Shown here in pieces: positions 2,564 through 12,839 of a stretch of DNA of 20,998 bases. The notes beneath the pieces were generated by a model, which saw only the letters and a program-made list of their open reading frames with translations, searched no databases and had not been told where the DNA came from. A program made the position numbers and the translations under genes. How positions within the stretch are numbered: the stretch's first letter is position 1; each line of letters starts with the position of its first letter. Source of the DNA: a virus; the IMG/VR virus record IMGVR_UViG_3300042895_002162, positions 1-20,998 of that record; one strand, 5' to 3'.

Positions 2564-3004
2564 ATGTCCCAATCATCTTTCAGTGAATGGTTTGCGGCAC
2601 AGCAATTTCGTCACTTCGGTGCCGCAGAATTTACTAGCTACTTTGCCCGCGAACGCAAGGGGGTGAAGAACAGCACGCCGCCCCGGCAGTTGTGGAAAAA
2701 CATCGTGCCTGCCCTGCGCATCGTCGATGAACTGCGCGAGAGTTTTGGTAAACCATGCCGGATTCTCAGCTCCTATCGTTCTCCTGCCTACAACAAGGCC
2801 GTGGGCGGGGCTCCGCTGAGTCAGCACAAGGAATTCACCGCACTCGACATTGCCTTCGATGGCGTCAGCCCGCAGCGCGTGTATGAGCGACTGCTCGAAT
2901 GGCGTCAGCAAGGCAAGTTTTCCGGAGGCCTCGGACTCTACCCCTCATCGGGATTCGTCCACATCGACACGCGCGGTCGCAACTCCACTTGGAAAGGAAA
3001 ATGA
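2564..3004 (+). CDS. M15 peptidase family endolysin
   Basis: A 146-residue protein with the zinc peptidase pattern of family M15 (DD-carboxypeptidase/VanY-like). SYRSPAYNKAVGG lies at residues 70-82, SQHKEFTALDI at 86-96 and FVHIDTRG at 131-138. H88, D95 and H133 are the expected zinc ligands, all present. This family cleaves peptide cross-links or stems of peptidoglycan. A compact single-domain M15 enzyme in a phage is usually the lysis endolysin. There is no signal peptide, so release would depend on a holin, and the membrane protein directly upstream is a candidate. Its stop overlaps the next start (ATGA). The location between terminase and portal genes is unusual for a lysis gene. A structural, virion-associated role is the less likely alternative. 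Confidence 0.85.
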   Translation: MSQSSFSEWFAAQQFRHFGAAEFTSYFARERKGVKNSTPPRQLWKNIVPALRIVDELRESFGKPCRILSSYRSPAYNKAVGGAPLSQHKEFTALDIAFDGVSPQRVYERLLEWRQQGKFSGGLGLYPSSGFVHIDTRGRNSTWKGK

Positions 3005-3267
3005 CCATGGCCCGCGGACTCTTCATCACCGGATTCACTGTTACCGAGGTTCTCGCGATTCAACAGCGAGCAAAGTCTCTGCTCATGGAAGGCAAGACCA
3101 TCATGAACTGGAACGACGCCGAGACCTCCGTCTCGAAGCAATTCACCATGCCCGTCGATCAGGTGCTTGAGGAGTGCGGCCACGCACTCAAGGTGCTCGA
3201 CCCGCAAACTTACGGCAGACCACGCACTGCCACTGCCTCCTTCATCCACGGATACCTCGCGAAATGA
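3001..3267 (+). CDS. gpW-like head-tail joining protein (candidate)
   Basis: An 88-residue protein. I chose the ATG at 3001, which overlaps the endolysin stop (ATGA), rather than an upstream in-frame start that would overlap the endolysin widely; the ATG at 3007 is also possible. The layout is a helix (residues about 13-30), a two-stranded stretch around GKTIMNWNDAETSVSK, then a helix (about 52-66). That resembles gpW of lambda, which has a helix, a beta-hairpin after an 'LMTGK'-like turn (here LLMEGK), and a helix. gpW also sits between the terminase and portal genes, as this gene does. It would plug the head-tail junction after DNA packaging. Similarity is by eye only; the position is the stronger argument. 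Confidence 0.55.
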   Translation: MTMARGLFITGFTVTEVLAIQQRAKSLLMEGKTIMNWNDAETSVSKQFTMPVDQVLEECGHALKVLDPQTYGRPRTATASFIHGYLAK

Positions 3268-8637: not shown

Positions 8638-9063
8638 ATGCCCAACTTGATTGAAGATCGCTTATCGTCATTGCTGGCGGAATGGATGGCAAATCACCGT
8701 CCACAGGAGCTCCCCGAGTCCGTGCCTTTCCATGTCGCACGCCGTGATGACATCCGCACGCGACCCTGTGTGGTTCTCAACCCAACGGAATCCAAGCCCA
8801 TTCCCGGCATGCCGCACACCGCTCGCGTGAAACTGGACGTCCACTTGTTTTCCCAGGTGGATGATACCTCTGCCGAGGATCACGCGCTGTGGGCGGGCAA
8901 ACTTGTCTTGTTGCTGCGCGACAAGGCGACCATGCAACAGGAACTCGATTCCGAATCGTTCTGCCTTCATGGTCTGATCGACCGCGAGAGCGTCACCACT
9001 CCCGATGAGTCTCGTGGCCGGGAAACCGTTCTCAGCTACGAGGCCGTGGTGTCTGCCGTGTGA
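8638..9063 (+). CDS. Tail terminator-like protein (gpU analogue)
   Basis: A 141-residue protein. The frame is open from 8524, but no start codon lies between the preceding gene's stop (8618) and ATG 8638, so 8638 is the sensible start. It shows an N-terminal helix (LIEDRLSSLLAEWMANH), central strands (RPCVVLNPTES, ARVKLDVHLFSQ), a helix (DHALWAGKLVLLLRDKATMQQ) and a C-terminal strand pair ending ETVLSYEAVVSAV. This alternating pattern is common in tail terminator proteins, which cap the tube and dock it to the neck. The stop TGA overlaps the next ATG by one base. Confidence 0.55.
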   Translation: MPNLIEDRLSSLLAEWMANHRPQELPESVPFHVARRDDIRTRPCVVLNPTESKPIPGMPHTARVKLDVHLFSQVDDTSAEDHALWAGKLVLLLRDKATMQQELDSESFCLHGLIDRESVTTPDESRGRETVLSYEAVVSAV

Positions 9064-9470
9064 TGCGGTTGACATCGCAACCGCAGCAAATGTCTGCGAC
9101 TTTCATCGGCACTACTGGCAACTGGGGCATCCCGAACGATCAAGCGGGGATCCTCATCACCGATCTCTCCTTCGACTACTCCAACCAGGAAAAACCTGTG
9201 CTCAACAAGAGCGGAGAAATCATCGGACTATCGCTCTATCAGGAGAAAGTCGAAATCAAACTCTCGGGACTGGTGGCCAAGACCTCTTCCTTCAATGGCA
9301 AGATCGGAGCAGCACTTGTTCTCTCGAATGCCATCCCCGCGCACCTACAACAGACAGGCGGCATGACGGTTCTGATGCAAGTCAGCCGCAGTCTCAACAA
9401 CGAAGACTTCGAGAAAATCGACCTCACCGCGACCCACTACCCATTCCTCGCCGCCGGTGGTGGTGCTTGA
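9063..9470 (+). CDS. Probable major tail (tube) protein
   Basis: A 135-residue beta-rich protein starting in the stop of the tail-terminator-like gene (TGATG). An alternative start is the ATG at 9090, giving MSATFIGTTG. The body alternates strands such as AGILITDLSFDYS, EKVEIKLSGLVAKTS and MTVLMQVSRSLNNEDFEKIDLTATHYP, consistent with the flat sheet of tube proteins. It ends in a short Ala/Gly tail. In lambda order this is the place of gpV, ahead of the chaperone genes. It is shorter than most tube proteins (gpV is 246 aa, including a C-terminal Ig-like domain), which would fit a tube domain alone. Confidence 0.5.
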   Translation: MRLTSQPQQMSATFIGTTGNWGIPNDQAGILITDLSFDYSNQEKPVLNKSGEIIGLSLYQEKVEIKLSGLVAKTSSFNGKIGAALVLSNAIPAHLQQTGGMTVLMQVSRSLNNEDFEKIDLTATHYPFLAAGGGA

Positions 9471-9494: not shown

Positions 9495-9896
9495 ATGAAT
9501 GCCGTATCCCATCTTTCCTCCACCGCCACCAGCAATACATGCCTTGCCGCCGCATTGACGGCGGTCGGTATCCCGCTTGCTGAGAAGCCGTTCGTTCGCG
9601 TTGTTGGCGACGGCATCCGTGGTGAACGCACGGTCTGGTTCTTCGAGCCTCAAAGCCATTGCGGCAAGTTTGATACCAAGGCATTGATTGAGGCATGGCA
9701 CCATGACGCTTGGCATCTCGCCAACCCGGAGCATCCCTTTGCCTACATTAAGTGCGCGCTGCTCAACCGAGAGCGACTGGTGGACAAGGTGAAACAGGAT
9801 GTGCCACTCGCCTGCGTGAAACGCCGGGGCAAGATAGCCTTCATCCCACTCGACGCCTCACCCTCTGTGGAAGATTTCTACCTACGCCACCTCTAA
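9495..9896 (+). CDS. Phage protein of unknown function in tail region
   Basis: A 133-residue soluble protein between the probable tube gene and the tail assembly chaperone gene. The sequence begins with a small-residue-rich helix (NTCLAAALTAVGI) and continues with strands (FVRVVGDG, ERTVWFFEP). The segment ALIEAWHHDAWHLANPEHPFAYIKCALLNRERL is notably rich in His and Trp, and KIAFIPLDASPSVEDFYLRHL closes it. There is no membrane segment and no enzyme motif that I recognise. The clustering of His residues does not match a known metal site. Position suggests a tail assembly or minor tail role, but I do not assign one. Confidence 0.6.
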   Translation: MNAVSHLSSTATSNTCLAAALTAVGIPLAEKPFVRVVGDGIRGERTVWFFEPQSHCGKFDTKALIEAWHHDAWHLANPEHPFAYIKCALLNRERLVDKVKQDVPLACVKRRGKIAFIPLDASPSVEDFYLRHL

Positions 9897-9899
9897 GCC

Positions 9900-10319
9900 A
9901 TGAACGATACCGACCGCCAAAAACTACTCTCCTCCGCCTTCCATGATGTCGAAACCATCGTCGGCGGCCACGCCATGCGCCCGCTATCGCTGGCCAGTTA
10001 CGATGTGCTGCTGCGCACCGGCAACCCACTGGTGAAAGGCGAAATGCCCACAGACGGCACGCCGGAATTCACTTCGTCGATCATGGGATTTGTGTTCACC
10101 CACTGCGCACCGTGGCCAGAAGTAGTGCGAGCCTCATTCCACGATCAAGGATTCCGTGAAGCCGCGCTGATCTTCTGCGGTGGACTCACCCCTGCGGATT
10201 TTCAAATCGCCTTCAAACGACTGGAAGAGCAAAGCCGTGAACTGGAAGCAGCTCAGGTCGAAACCATGGGGGACATCGGTGGAAAAAAGCCCCACCCTGC
10301 GACGAACCCGGCTTCCTAG
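9900..10319 (+). CDS. Tail assembly chaperone, short form (gpG-like)
   Basis: A 139-residue protein directly upstream of the tape-measure region. It is largely helical, with ASYDVLLRTGNPLVKGEMP and the C-terminal helix ADFQIAFKRLEEQSRELEAAQ before a polar tail KKPHPATNPAS. In siphophages the gene before the tape measure encodes a chaperone that coats the tape measure protein. It is normally made in two forms by frameshifting. Here a slippery A_AAA_AAG (10283-10289) lies near its 3' end, and an open frame continues in -1, which supports the assignment better than the sequence similarity does. Confidence 0.7.
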   Translation: MNDTDRQKLLSSAFHDVETIVGGHAMRPLSLASYDVLLRTGNPLVKGEMPTDGTPEFTSSIMGFVFTHCAPWPEVVRASFHDQGFREAALIFCGGLTPADFQIAFKRLEEQSRELEAAQVETMGDIGGKKPHPATNPAS

Positions 10320-10525
10320 CCGCCCAGGTATTTGCCGTCGCAGCCGAAACGGGGTGGCCAGAGGAACGGATCCTGTGCATGCCGCTCGCTCGTCTGACGC
10401 AGTATCAGCACTGCCTGCTGCGAAGGAATGGGGTAAGGACAAGTTGGAGCGTCGTTTGCAAATGCGAGATCACTCTTCGGGAACAGTTGAAGATGCTGCG
10501 GCTGGCGTGGACAACAGATAAGTAA
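9900..10525 (+). CDS. Tail assembly chaperone, frameshifted long form (gpGT-like)
   Basis: A joined product: frame 0 through Lys130 (AAG at 10287-10289), then -1 slippage and re-reading from 10289 to the TAA at 10523-10525, giving 208 residues. The -1 extension of 78 residues reads as a real domain, including GFLAAQVFAVAAETGWPEER and ILCMPLARLTQYQHCLLRRN, a pattern I associate with the T part of GT chaperones. The -1 frame opens after a stop at 10238-10240 and has no ATG, GTG or TTG before ATG 10379, so it cannot be reached by normal initiation at its beginning. The slippery heptamer is in the correct phase. G-rich sequence (about 10268-10272) lies upstream, and a possible stem 10298-10303/10337-10342 lies downstream. 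Confidence 0.75.
10283..10289 (+). promoter_or_regulatory. -1 ribosomal frameshift site A_AAA_AAG
   Basis: The heptamer A AAA AAG is read as (GG)A-AAA-AAG in the chaperone frame, the most efficient known bacterial -1 slippery type (as in E. coli dnaX). A G-rich SD-like stretch lies about 10 bases upstream. Downstream, CCACCC-TGCGAC (10292-10303) can pair with GTCGCA (10337-10342) and GGGTGG (10352-10357) around an internal bulge, a possible stimulatory stem. Confidence 0.78.
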
Positions 10526-10540
10526 CGTCAGGTGGTTTGC

Positions 10541-10569
10541 TTGACGTCATGCGCTAGATTTGCTATTGC
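10541..10569 (+). promoter_or_regulatory. Candidate sigma70-type promoter of the ParB-like gene
   Basis: TTGACG at 10541-10546 and TATTGC at 10564-10569 are separated by 17 bases. They lie in an AT-richer segment right after the chaperone genes and about 33 bases before the ParB-like ATG. The -35 box is near-consensus; the -10 box is weak (three of six). Confidence 0.4.
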
Positions 10570-10571
10570 TC

Positions 10572-10582
10572 TATTGGCAATA
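10572..10582. promoter_or_regulatory. Operator-like palindrome TATTGGCAATA
   Basis: A perfect odd-centred palindrome lies just downstream of the candidate -10 box, at the expected transcription start. A further TATTG copy overlaps the -10 itself (10564-10568), and a TGACGTCA palindrome (10542-10549) overlaps the -35. The density of symmetric sites suggests repressor binding, but the binding protein is unknown. Confidence 0.3.
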
Positions 10583-10601
10583 AAACACCCCTAGGACAAA
10601 A

Positions 10602-11018
10602 ATGGAAAAATCTCGAATCTCTGGGCAAAAGGAACCTATTCAAGGGTATAGTGGGTCTTGGGATAACTATGTTGAGTGGTTAAGCATTGAAGATGCCATG
10701 ACACTTGAGCCTCCGAACGATCCATACGACGATGATCTACTCACACGATTGAAACAGAGCATGCAGAGAGATGGATGGGTCGGCCCACCGCTTCTGATGC
10801 AAATCTTCGATGACGGGGAATATCTTCTACTGCAAGGAAGTCACCGTCTGGCCGCCGCAGCAAGTGTTAGATTAACGCGCGTCCCATTTCTCATAATTCG
10901 TGGCGGAGAGTTCGGAGAAAACAGCCCTTTTGAGACAGCCTATTTGAGGGCAAAAAGAGTGGATGCTGAATTAGCACTGGCCGTTTCCGAAATCTCAGAC
11001 GAAAATCATCACAGTTAA
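10602..11018 (+). CDS. ParB/Srx-fold domain protein (phage moron)
   Basis: A 138-residue protein with the core of a ParB N-terminal-like domain. It has a helix LLTRLKQSMQRDGWVGPPLL (46-65), a strand-turn EYLLLQGSHRLAAAASV (73-89) containing the G-S-H-R motif (79-82), and the strand VPFLIIRGG. In ParB the equivalent loop binds nucleotide (CTP); related standalone domains are nucleases or ATP-using enzymes, so the reaction here is open. There is no HTH or dimerisation domain, so it is not a full partition protein. It is AT-richer than its neighbours, lies between chaperone and tape measure genes, has a good SD (AGGA at 10593) and its own promoter-like sequence. These are the marks of a moron, an added gene that may act in the lysogen or against host functions. 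Confidence 0.68.
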   Translation: MEKSRISGQKEPIQGYSGSWDNYVEWLSIEDAMTLEPPNDPYDDDLLTRLKQSMQRDGWVGPPLLMQIFDDGEYLLLQGSHRLAAAASVRLTRVPFLIIRGGEFGENSPFETAYLRAKRVDAELALAVSEISDENHHS

Positions 11019-11081
11019 ATGGCGAATTACTGTAATTGTATCCAAACAATCAGGACGATAGGTTGACTCCACTCCCGGCGC

Positions 11082-12839
11082 ATGAGCGCCCTTACCGTCA
11101 CCCTCGGAGCCGATATCACTGCGTTGAAGCGCGCGATGGCGGGAGCTACCGAACTGGTATCGGCATCCGCACGTCGCATGGGTAAGCTATCGAGCGCCGG
11201 ACTTGCCGGGATTGGCAAAGGTGGCGCTGCTGCGTTAAGCAAAGGTTTTTCAGTCGCTGGTGTGGCTCTCAAAGCAGGGCTGGGAGCGGCTTTGGCGGGC
11301 GGTGCCGCAGCGGTAGGCGTCGGAGTAAAAGCGGTCAATGCTGCCGCTGACTTCGAGCAAACCAAGGTCGCATTCTCTACACTCATCGGCGATGCCGCCA
11401 AGGCTGAGGAAACGCTGGGCAAACTCCGTGAACTGGGAGCCAAGACGCCATTCGAGTTCCCCGAACTTGCTGATGCGGGTCGCAAGTTGATCGCATTCGG
11501 AGAATCTGCCGACTCGGTGCCTGAGACACTTCGACGGATCGGTGACGTGTCTGCCGGTGTTCAAGCACCAGTCAATGAAATCGCGGAACTTTACGGCAAG
11601 GCCCGAGTGCAAGGTCGCTTGTTCGCCGAGGACATCAACCAACTCACGGGGCGAGGCATCCCGATTATTCAGGAACTGGCGAAGCAATTTGGTGTGTCGG
11701 ATTCCGAAGTGAAAAAGCTGGTCGAATCCGGGAAGGTTGGTTTCCCGAACATCGAACGCGCATTTATGGATATGACCTCACAGGGTGGCAAGTTCTCCGG
11801 CATGATGGAGGCGCAGAGCAAAACGACTTCCGGCCTCTTCTCGACACTCAAGGACTCGATCAACGAGGTTTTTCTCACACTCGGTACGCCGATCAACGAC
11901 GCCATCCGCCCCCTGGTGGAGCAGGCGATTGGGCTGGTGCAGAAACTCACGCCTTTGGCCGCAGAAGCAGGCAAGAAAGTGAAAGATGCGGTGATGTTCG
12001 TGATCGCAGCATTCAAGAGCGGACAACTCCTTGATCTGATCACCTCGGGACTGCAGCTCGCGTTTGCCGTGGGCGTGAATGCCTTGACCAACGGCTTTCG
12101 TGTGGCGACTGAGTTCTTTTGGAATTTGCTCACCGATGGCGCGATGTGGAAGAGTTTAGGGACGACCTTGCTTGGACTTGTGGCCGGCTTCGGTGCCGCC
12201 TTGCTGAATGCCTTTCAAACTCCCATCGTCTATCTGCAAGCAGGTATGGAGTGGGTGGTAGCGCACCTGATGAAAGGCTTGCTCAAAATCCCGGGCATGA
12301 GCGACCTTATGGGATTCGAGCCAGAAGATGTGCAGACGGATTTCGGCAGAATCTTGCAAGACTGGCAGGAAAGCGGTGCCGAGATGTTTGGCATGAACTT
12401 CAAGGAGATGTCCGAAGAAGCGCAGGCATTGCTGGGACAAGGCGCTCCACAGCTCGGCGAACGTGTTGCGGCAGCGGCCAAGAAGGCAGGCGAAACCACT
12501 GGCAGCGAACTCATCGACACCAGCGGTTTGCGGGATAGTTTCGGCAAACTGGTCACATCGATCCGCGATACTCTGCCGAAGCCCGAGGAGGTCAAGCAAG
12601 CGGCCACGGCAGCCGCCAAGGTGACGACGAATACGACGCCTATGGCACAACCCACAGTATCGAGTCTCTCGCCGATCGTAACCTCACTCGGCAAAGTCGG
12701 TGGTGGAGGCTACTCGTCCGGCACGCTGGACGCTCAGCGGGAGAACAATCGACTGACCAGCGAGACGAATCGCATTCTCCGTGCCATGAGCGAGCGCATC
12801 AAACCGAGTGGTGCCGCATCTGTGACCGCTTTCGGTTGA
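11082..12839 (+). CDS. Tail tape measure protein
   Basis: A 585-residue protein and the longest tail gene. Residues about 85-265 match the conserved N-terminal tape-measure domain: FEQTKVAFSTLIGDAAKAEE, KTPFEFPELADAGRKLIAFG, then LFAEDINQLTGRGIPIIQEL, VGFPNIERAFMDMTSQGGKF and the closing QSKTTSGLFSTLKDS. Upstream lies a Gly/Ala-rich hydrophobic stretch (60-85). Further hydrophobic segments (about 310-335 and 350-385) could insert in the membrane during DNA entry. The C-terminal third is Ala/Thr/Ser-rich, ending in a short helix. It sets tail length. At the usual roughly 1.5 angstroms per residue it implies a tail of nearly 90 nm, a modest siphovirus. No clear SD precedes the ATG. Confidence 0.93.
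   Translation: MSALTVTLGADITALKRAMAGATELVSASARRMGKLSSAGLAGIGKGGAAALSKGFSVAGVALKAGLGAALAGGAAAVGVGVKAVNAAADFEQTKVAFSTLIGDAAKAEETLGKLRELGAKTPFEFPELADAGRKLIAFGESADSVPETLRRIGDVSAGVQAPVNEIAELYGKARVQGRLFAEDINQLTGRGIPIIQELAKQFGVSDSEVKKLVESGKVGFPNIERAFMDMTSQGGKFSGMMEAQSKTTSGLFSTLKDSINEVFLTLGTPINDAIRPLVEQAIGLVQKLTPLAAEAGKKVKDAVMFVIAAFKSGQLLDLITSGLQLAFAVGVNALTNGFRVATEFFWNLLTDGAMWKSLGTTLLGLVAGFGAALLNAFQTPIVYLQAGMEWVVAHLMKGLLKIPGMSDLMGFEPEDVQTDFGRILQDWQESGAEMFGMNFKEMSEEAQALLGQGAPQLGERVAAAAKKAGETTGSELIDTSGLRDSFGKLVTSIRDTLPKPEEVKQAATAAAKVTTNTTPMAQPTVSSLSPIVTSLGKVGGGGYSSGTLDAQRENNRLTSETNRILRAMSERIKPSGAASVTAFG

Follow-up and report, generated by a model that had tools for sequence, protein, structure and literature searches.

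Two overlapping coding regions, designated G and T, lie between a presumed tube gene (9060-9470) and the tape measure gene, all on the same strand, in a viral DNA of 20,998 nucleotides (IMG/VR virus record IMGVR_UViG_3300042895_002162, positions 1-20,998). This whole stretch is referred to as the window, and its features are listed in Table 1. T is in the -1 frame relative to G, and G residues 1-130 are common to G and to the predicted fusion GT. The -1 frame is open from 10241 to 10525, bounded by TGA at 10238 and TAA at 10523. The ATG at 10379 is codon 31 of T, and the open -1 frame of the window has no earlier ATG, GTG or TTG. The heptamer A_AAA_AAG at 10283-10289 is the sole in-phase X_XXY_YYZ heptamer of the G ORF. 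The string AAAAAAG occurs twice on the plus strand of the window (10283 and 17517) and once on the minus strand. The ORF at 9495-9896 has no confident Pfam or PHROG family. An IMG/VR contig of 39,933 bases (L002) is identical to the window across the 12,390 bases compared, so the same virus is also present in a longer assembly.

Table 1. Features of the G-T region and its neighbourhood (positions in the window).
Feature	Position	Strand	Basis
Conserved ORF upstream, presumed major tail protein	9060-9470	+	No Pfam or PHROG match
G, candidate tail assembly chaperone of 139 aa in the zero frame	9900-10319	+	ORF; relatives with 67-100% identity; dN/dS 0.087; TAG stop in 63/63
GGGGG, candidate Shine-Dalgarno-like frameshift stimulator, 10 nt 5' of the heptamer	10268-10272	+	Sequence; relatives
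Slippery heptamer A_AAA_AAG, in phase with G	10283-10289	+	65/69 A_AAA_AAG, 4/69 G_GGA_AAG
T, 78-aa domain of the -1 frame and C-terminal portion of GT (stop TAA included)	10289-10525	+	0/63 with stops; dN/dS 0.058
Downstream stem proposed earlier (within 10292-10357)	10298-10303/10337-10342, 10292-10297/10352-10357	+	Present in the window, not conserved
G stop codon TAG, forcing an nTA codon on T	10317-10319	+	nTA in 63/63
Cargo of the window, ParB N-terminal-like protein	10602-11018		Pfam 0.00015 (below curated cut-off); PHROG ParB-like 6.1e-06
Tape measure protein gene	11082-12839	+	Pfam TMP_3, E 4.5e-23; PHROG tail length tape measure, E 9.8e-75

A search with G gave 74 virus loci. A search with T gave 128 stretches encoding a relative, the best 80 of which were kept. 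Both parts are present in 123 loci, 70 of them distinct and complete. Without L074 (G incomplete), 69 distinct complete sequences remain, the window being counted in. The 63 gap-free sequences used for positional comparisons exclude L032, L071, L072, L086, L098 and L125 (length changes) as well as L074, in which the start of G is incomplete. All conservation counts given here are from related sequences, so that they do not represent independent events. For the 29 relatives from bacterial genomes, every contig name indicates Verrucomicrobiota (Akkermansiaceae, Verrucomicrobiaceae, Verrucomicrobiales and Verrucomicrobia are among the names, and one MAG is labelled Akkermansia muciniphila). Three of these 29 contigs exceed 200 kb, which is consistent with prophages.

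An in-phase slippery heptamer is found at the end of G in all 69 distinct complete sequences. A lone heptamer in one sequence would be insufficient to argue for more than chance; its conservation across relatives is decisive. A_AAA_AAG stands directly before T in 62 of the 69 sequences and one codon further upstream, still in phase, in another three. The other four have G_GGA_AAG, positioned three bases earlier. According to excerpts of the review PMC5009743, both heptamers are shift-prone in E. coli. In a tree of the 69 sequences and three of ten loci related to Akkermansia phage Moulinsart (see below), the four G_GGA_AAG sequences form one clade (support 99/96), which is nested inside the A_AAA_AAG sequences. 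Judged from this tree, one predicted slippery site is swapped for another, with the frame and position of T unchanged. At the slip, the two lysine codons are AAA-AAG in 59 of the 63 gap-free sequences, lysine elsewhere in G being encoded by 87 AAA and 83 AAG. Of the 73 distinct rows with both parts, 72 have T in the -1 frame relative to G. In the remaining row (L086), a normal -1 T is accompanied by a second copy of T, which has the higher score (see below).

Coding constraint on T is evident from the same comparison. Codons 1-56 of T are free of stops in all 63 gap-free sequences, and the other two frames are stopped in 63 and 30 of them. The codon wobble changes frame at the slip: in G, the three codon positions have mean entropies of 0.27/0.18/1.07, and beyond the G stop it is the third position in the -1 frame that varies (1.09 vs 0.49 and 0.21). 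The median dN/dS (pairs among 24 sampled sequences) is 0.087 for G and 0.058 for T codons 4-52. The stop codon of G (TAG) is kept in 63 of 63 sequences. The T codon that overlaps it is CTA in 55, ATA in five, TTA in two and GTA in one of them; elsewhere in T, nTA accounts for 24 of the 303 codons for Leu, 2 of the 93 for Ile and 18 of the 170 for Val. In the overlapping codon, TA is fixed while the first base varies, a pattern with no easy explanation unless it matters that G is terminated. Because the stop is retained despite the uncommon T codon that it imposes, both products seem to be needed, and the unshifted G product seems to be kept alongside the fusion.

Instead of being decoded by a frameshift, T might be an independent gene, with ribosomes re-initiating at a start of its own once G has been terminated. 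In favour of this, the window has an internal ATG at 10379, the Moulinsart record begins T at an internal ATG, and in 9 of the 63 sequences the open -1 frame contains a start codon at a distance of more than 90 nt upstream. However, in the stretch that begins 90 nt upstream and ends with codon 3 of T, none of the 63 has an ATG, GTG or TTG (the start codons counted). At or after T codon 1, the first such codon is codon 14, 17, 29 or 31, so that the conserved CDEPGFLAAQ (codons 4-13) precedes any such start. A separate start of T would also leave unexplained why an in-phase slip site is found in all 69 sequences and why one heptamer is swapped for another. Re-initiation is thus considered very unlikely.

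Transcriptional slippage, by which RNA polymerase would slip on the A6 run and generate mRNAs with G and T in one frame, could operate on the A_AAA_AAG site of 65 of the 69 sequences. Among the 63 gap-free sequences, however, the A run at the slip has a length of six in 58, seven in one (L073) and only three in four. Six A are short for productive transcriptional slippage, and in the four relatives with GGGAAAG, which lack any run longer than three, T is still in the -1 frame. The Shine-Dalgarno-like element described below suggests an involvement of ribosomes. We regard this explanation as highly improbable.

The G-T unit is intact in 23 of the 29 bacterial genome loci. Broken or partial units are found in the other six (L152-L157), all of which are Lac Pavin MAG contigs (JAPLUI/JAPLUJ). 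L152 and L155 retain the heptamer, which is altered in L153 and L157; L154 is without a T match, and L156 is without a recognisable junction. These broken copies may result from either decay or assembly error. The genome behind L152 (G009, 12.6 Mb) carries nine T matches, so this bin may be mixed or error-prone. That G and T were once a single gene, now frameshifted by sequencing error or decay, might be suggested by the homopolymer run at the junction and by the six Lac Pavin contigs, but it is scarcely credible, as it requires a majority of relatives with G and T in one frame and the opposite was found: the arrangement recurs in 69 distinct sequences and in 23 of 29 genome loci, with purifying selection on both parts and the G stop kept.

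With little room for doubt, G and T would be decoded as a single unit in the manner of lambda G/GT, with a programmed -1 frameshift that generates a GT fusion. Such a frameshift had already been proposed from the window alone. That sequence-only reading described an open -1 frame (10241-10525) without a start before the ATG at 10379, and A_AAA_AAG in the correct phase; the ORF scan and the reading of the window agree. It also postulated a 78-residue domain in the -1 frame, raised the question of whether domain and heptamer are conserved in relatives, and named stops or a lack of amino acid conservation in the -1 frame of homologues as evidence that would speak against it. The relatives answer this in its favour: an in-phase heptamer is found in all 69 distinct complete sequences, T is constrained (dN/dS about 0.06) and, in the 63 gap-free sequences, has no stops in codons 1-56, and the stop of G is kept in all 63, which is strong comparative support for the proposed GT-type fusion.

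Two potential stimulators had been pointed out, a G-rich sequence upstream of the heptamer and a stem downstream of it, both likened to those of dnaX. The upstream element was found to be moderately supported. GGGGG or GGGAG is located exactly 10 nt upstream of the heptamer in 40 of the 63 gap-free sequences, and some Shine-Dalgarno-like core is located at 8-10 nt in 46, but 17 have none. The spacing for -1 shifts is given as 9-14 nt in excerpts of PMC5009743. The affinity for the anti-Shine-Dalgarno sequence peaks some 10 nt 5' of the heptamer, with a mean of -6.5 kcal/mol (offset 367); another peak at offsets 341-344 is slightly stronger. Of the 69 background windows of G, 3 show binding as strong as that of the slip-proximal one. 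When synonymous codon choice was controlled for in 32 of the 63 sequences, z was lowest (-1.24) for the slip-proximal one of the 41 windows. The Shine-Dalgarno-like element is likely to stimulate the slip, as far as its position and recurrence indicate. Directly 3' of the heptamer, CC is found in 54 of 59 A_AAA_AAG sequences; this was the most shift-prone dinucleotide in a study using A_AAA_AAG that is cited in the excerpted text of PMC5009743.

The downstream stem fared differently. Its arms in the window are exact complements, as had been stated, and the region folds with -28.0 kcal/mol (z -1.69; 13 of 200 dinucleotide shuffles are as good). The stem is, however, not conserved. Across 60 sequences, 71.0% of the cells pair, which equals the shuffled mean (71.0), and two of the 12 pairs form in just nine and five of the 60 sequences. 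RNAalifold predicts 15 downstream pairs, one of which has a double change. Compared to synonymous shuffles, in which codons overlapping the end of G were permuted as well, the downstream RNA is less rather than more stable (mean z +0.78; above 0 in 50 of 63 sequences, below -1 in none; window +1.53). A role as conserved stimulator was thus rejected, and the stem as a stimulator is unproven. A weak sequence-specific effect may exist, because the fold is stable in the window, the mean stability at offset 395 is the lowest in the 70-nt profile, and versions of the stem slid by 1-3 columns pair less well (26.8-55.3%), the latter being expected for a structure drawn from one of the aligned sequences.

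We infer the following course of decoding. For most ribosomes, translation would yield G (139 aa) and end at 10319. A minority would probably be held by the GGGGG (10268-10272), which would pair with the 3' end of 16S rRNA. The held ribosomes would slip back by one base on A_AAA_AAG (10283-10289), with two tRNA-Lys re-pairing from AAA-AAG to AAA-AAA. They would then read the -1 frame up to 10525, yielding GT with 130 + 78 = 208 aa. By analogy to lambda, G may coat the tape measure protein (encoded by 11082-12839), the T part of GT may recruit the tail tube subunit, and neither would be part of the virion. For lambda, excerpts of PMC5009743 give a gpG to gpGT ratio of 30:1 and state that the G part binds the tape measure protein and the T part the tube protein. 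The same excerpts describe the tail chaperone frameshift as widely conserved despite the low sequence similarity of such proteins. The label "tail chaperone" for G and T is that of a candidate function, which is suggested by gene order and decoding architecture.

Neither G nor T has a convincing Pfam, PHROG or PDB match. Weak PHROG leads exist for T (phrog_16362, phrog_10636 and phrog_9812) and for G (phrog_16794, plus phrog_27939 in one member), with best E values of 0.024-0.33. The AlphaFold models (pLDDT 59.1 for G and 72.5 for T) are too weak to judge a resemblance to tail chaperone folds, and their comparison with known folds matched nothing. Phage records gave no match at the DNA level. 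At the protein level, G had one match, which is inside a terminase gene (E 0.3), and T had four, the best of which is from Akkermansia phage Moulinsart (ON453896.1; E 0.05).

Phage Moulinsart codes for a homologous G (30% identity, hhalign probability 94.9) and, in the -1 frame, a homologous T (hhalign probability 95.8); the two correspond to the annotated proteins WAK79076.1 and WAK79077.1. As in the window, there is an in-phase heptamer where G ends, and a tape measure gene follows downstream. However, its heptamer is A_AAA_AAC and is located directly before the G stop, and three annotated CDSs (WAK79078.1-WAK79080.1) are located between T and the tape measure gene. A_AAA_AAC is found in the same phase in all ten loci of this type, of which nine are from IMG/VR and one is Moulinsart itself; in G, one of the nine is 100% and six are 96-98% identical to Moulinsart. 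In excerpts of PMC5009743, this heptamer is described as much less shift-prone than A_AAA_AAG in E. coli and as a site in an archaeal virus. In the Moulinsart record, T (L233:6028-6240, corresponding to ON453896.1 11120-11332) is annotated from an internal ATG (WAK79077.1), with neither a frameshift nor a join of G and T being annotated. A conserved tail gene is thus deposited with its second half truncated and unjoined. Many phage records contain two unjoined tail chaperone genes, according to excerpts of the PRFect paper (PMC10885494). Our alignments could serve to annotate G and T in phages of Akkermansia and its relatives.

Verrucomicrobia phage P8625 (NC_029047) has a 206-aa ORF, gp18, directly before its tape measure gene. 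It shows a weak collinear resemblance to G followed by T, but is a single in-frame ORF. The order suggests that gp18 may be an in-frame G-T fusion, but the similarity is not significant (hhalign 0.8-17%), so that it is listed as a lead only.

The gene order around G and T is conserved. An ORF of the 9060-9470 type is found upstream of G in 122 of the 128 loci rows with room for it (72 of 78 when rows with identical G are omitted). Downstream, where 123 loci rows have room for it, a tape measure match is present in 114 (76 of 80 without identical-G rows) and absent in nine. The distance from the G match to the best tape measure match varies between 625 and 5203 bp in 133 loci rows and is at most 700 bp in 29 of them.

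The interval between T and the tape measure gene (10526-11081 in the window) is a hypervariable cargo slot inside the tail operon (loci L001-L157). The 69 distinct occupied slots contain 102 mechanically called ORFs of at least 90 aa, which form 78 BLAST clusters. Database searches covered 66 of the 76 representatives of at least 100 aa and returned matched families, of which the best 25 of 106 and the best 25 of 53 were considered. The matches listed include Mrr-type restriction endonucleases (2), a reverse transcriptase (1), a group II maturase domain (1) and a homing endonuclease (1), as well as EcsC, trypsin-like, Sel1, MORN and methyltransferase families. Among 156 loci rows with G, the ParB-like cargo is confined to the window and two rows of the identical contig.

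Additional T copies were encountered. The second T of L086 (890-1200) is located after T and has its own ATG (890); similar pairs of T matches occur in L088 and L089. This second T is 96.6% identical to the T of L043 over 58 aa, and the first T of L086 is divergent (67.5% to the window). From these identities, the second T looks like a recombination scar from an exchange of the G-T module. L145 has a further T-like stretch (2903-3130), 1.7 kb after its first T.

It is tempting to speculate, and we do so tentatively, that this GT cassette of a Verrucomicrobiota phage lineage is stimulated by the Shine-Dalgarno-like element alone, with no structure downstream, and that the junction of T and the tape measure gene is at the same time a recombination hotspot for unrelated cargo, leaving stray T scars. 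With restriction endonucleases, a reverse transcriptase and others as cargo, the frameshift cassette would mark the edge of an accessory-gene island.

The mechanism as such is known, being of the lambda G/GT kind, and the protein family, which the searched databases do not recognise, is regarded as new. Among the matches listed by a search of the open-access literature for a tail chaperone frameshift in Verrucomicrobia prophages, no title deals with the G/T family, which is no proof of absence. The exchange of the heptamer and the adjacent cargo slot are, on the sequence data, more unusual than the mechanism. The family adds a well-sampled case of GT frameshifting for Verrucomicrobiota phages, and the natural exchange of the heptamer with all else kept comes near to a ready-made experiment.

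Two known systems are close to the arrangement described here. The E. coli dnaX cassette has the same heptamer, A_AAA_AAG, and an upstream Shine-Dalgarno element, for which a candidate is located at 10 nt in our case; it differs in that our sequences did not show a conserved stem downstream of the heptamer, and its product is unrelated. The closer parallel is with the G/GT tail assembly chaperones of phage lambda, reportedly described by Levin (1993) and Xu (2013, 2014). G and T differ from these in that no similarity of sequence to any known family of tail chaperones was detected and, in the window, by the ParB_N-like ORF between T and the tape measure gene. They are alike in that two frames overlap ahead of the tape measure gene and that, as predicted here, a -1 shift occurs near the end of G and T is made only as a fusion. 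Both have a slippery heptamer, which in our sequences is A_AAA_AAG and, in one clade, G_GGA_AAG, which we take to be lambda's own.
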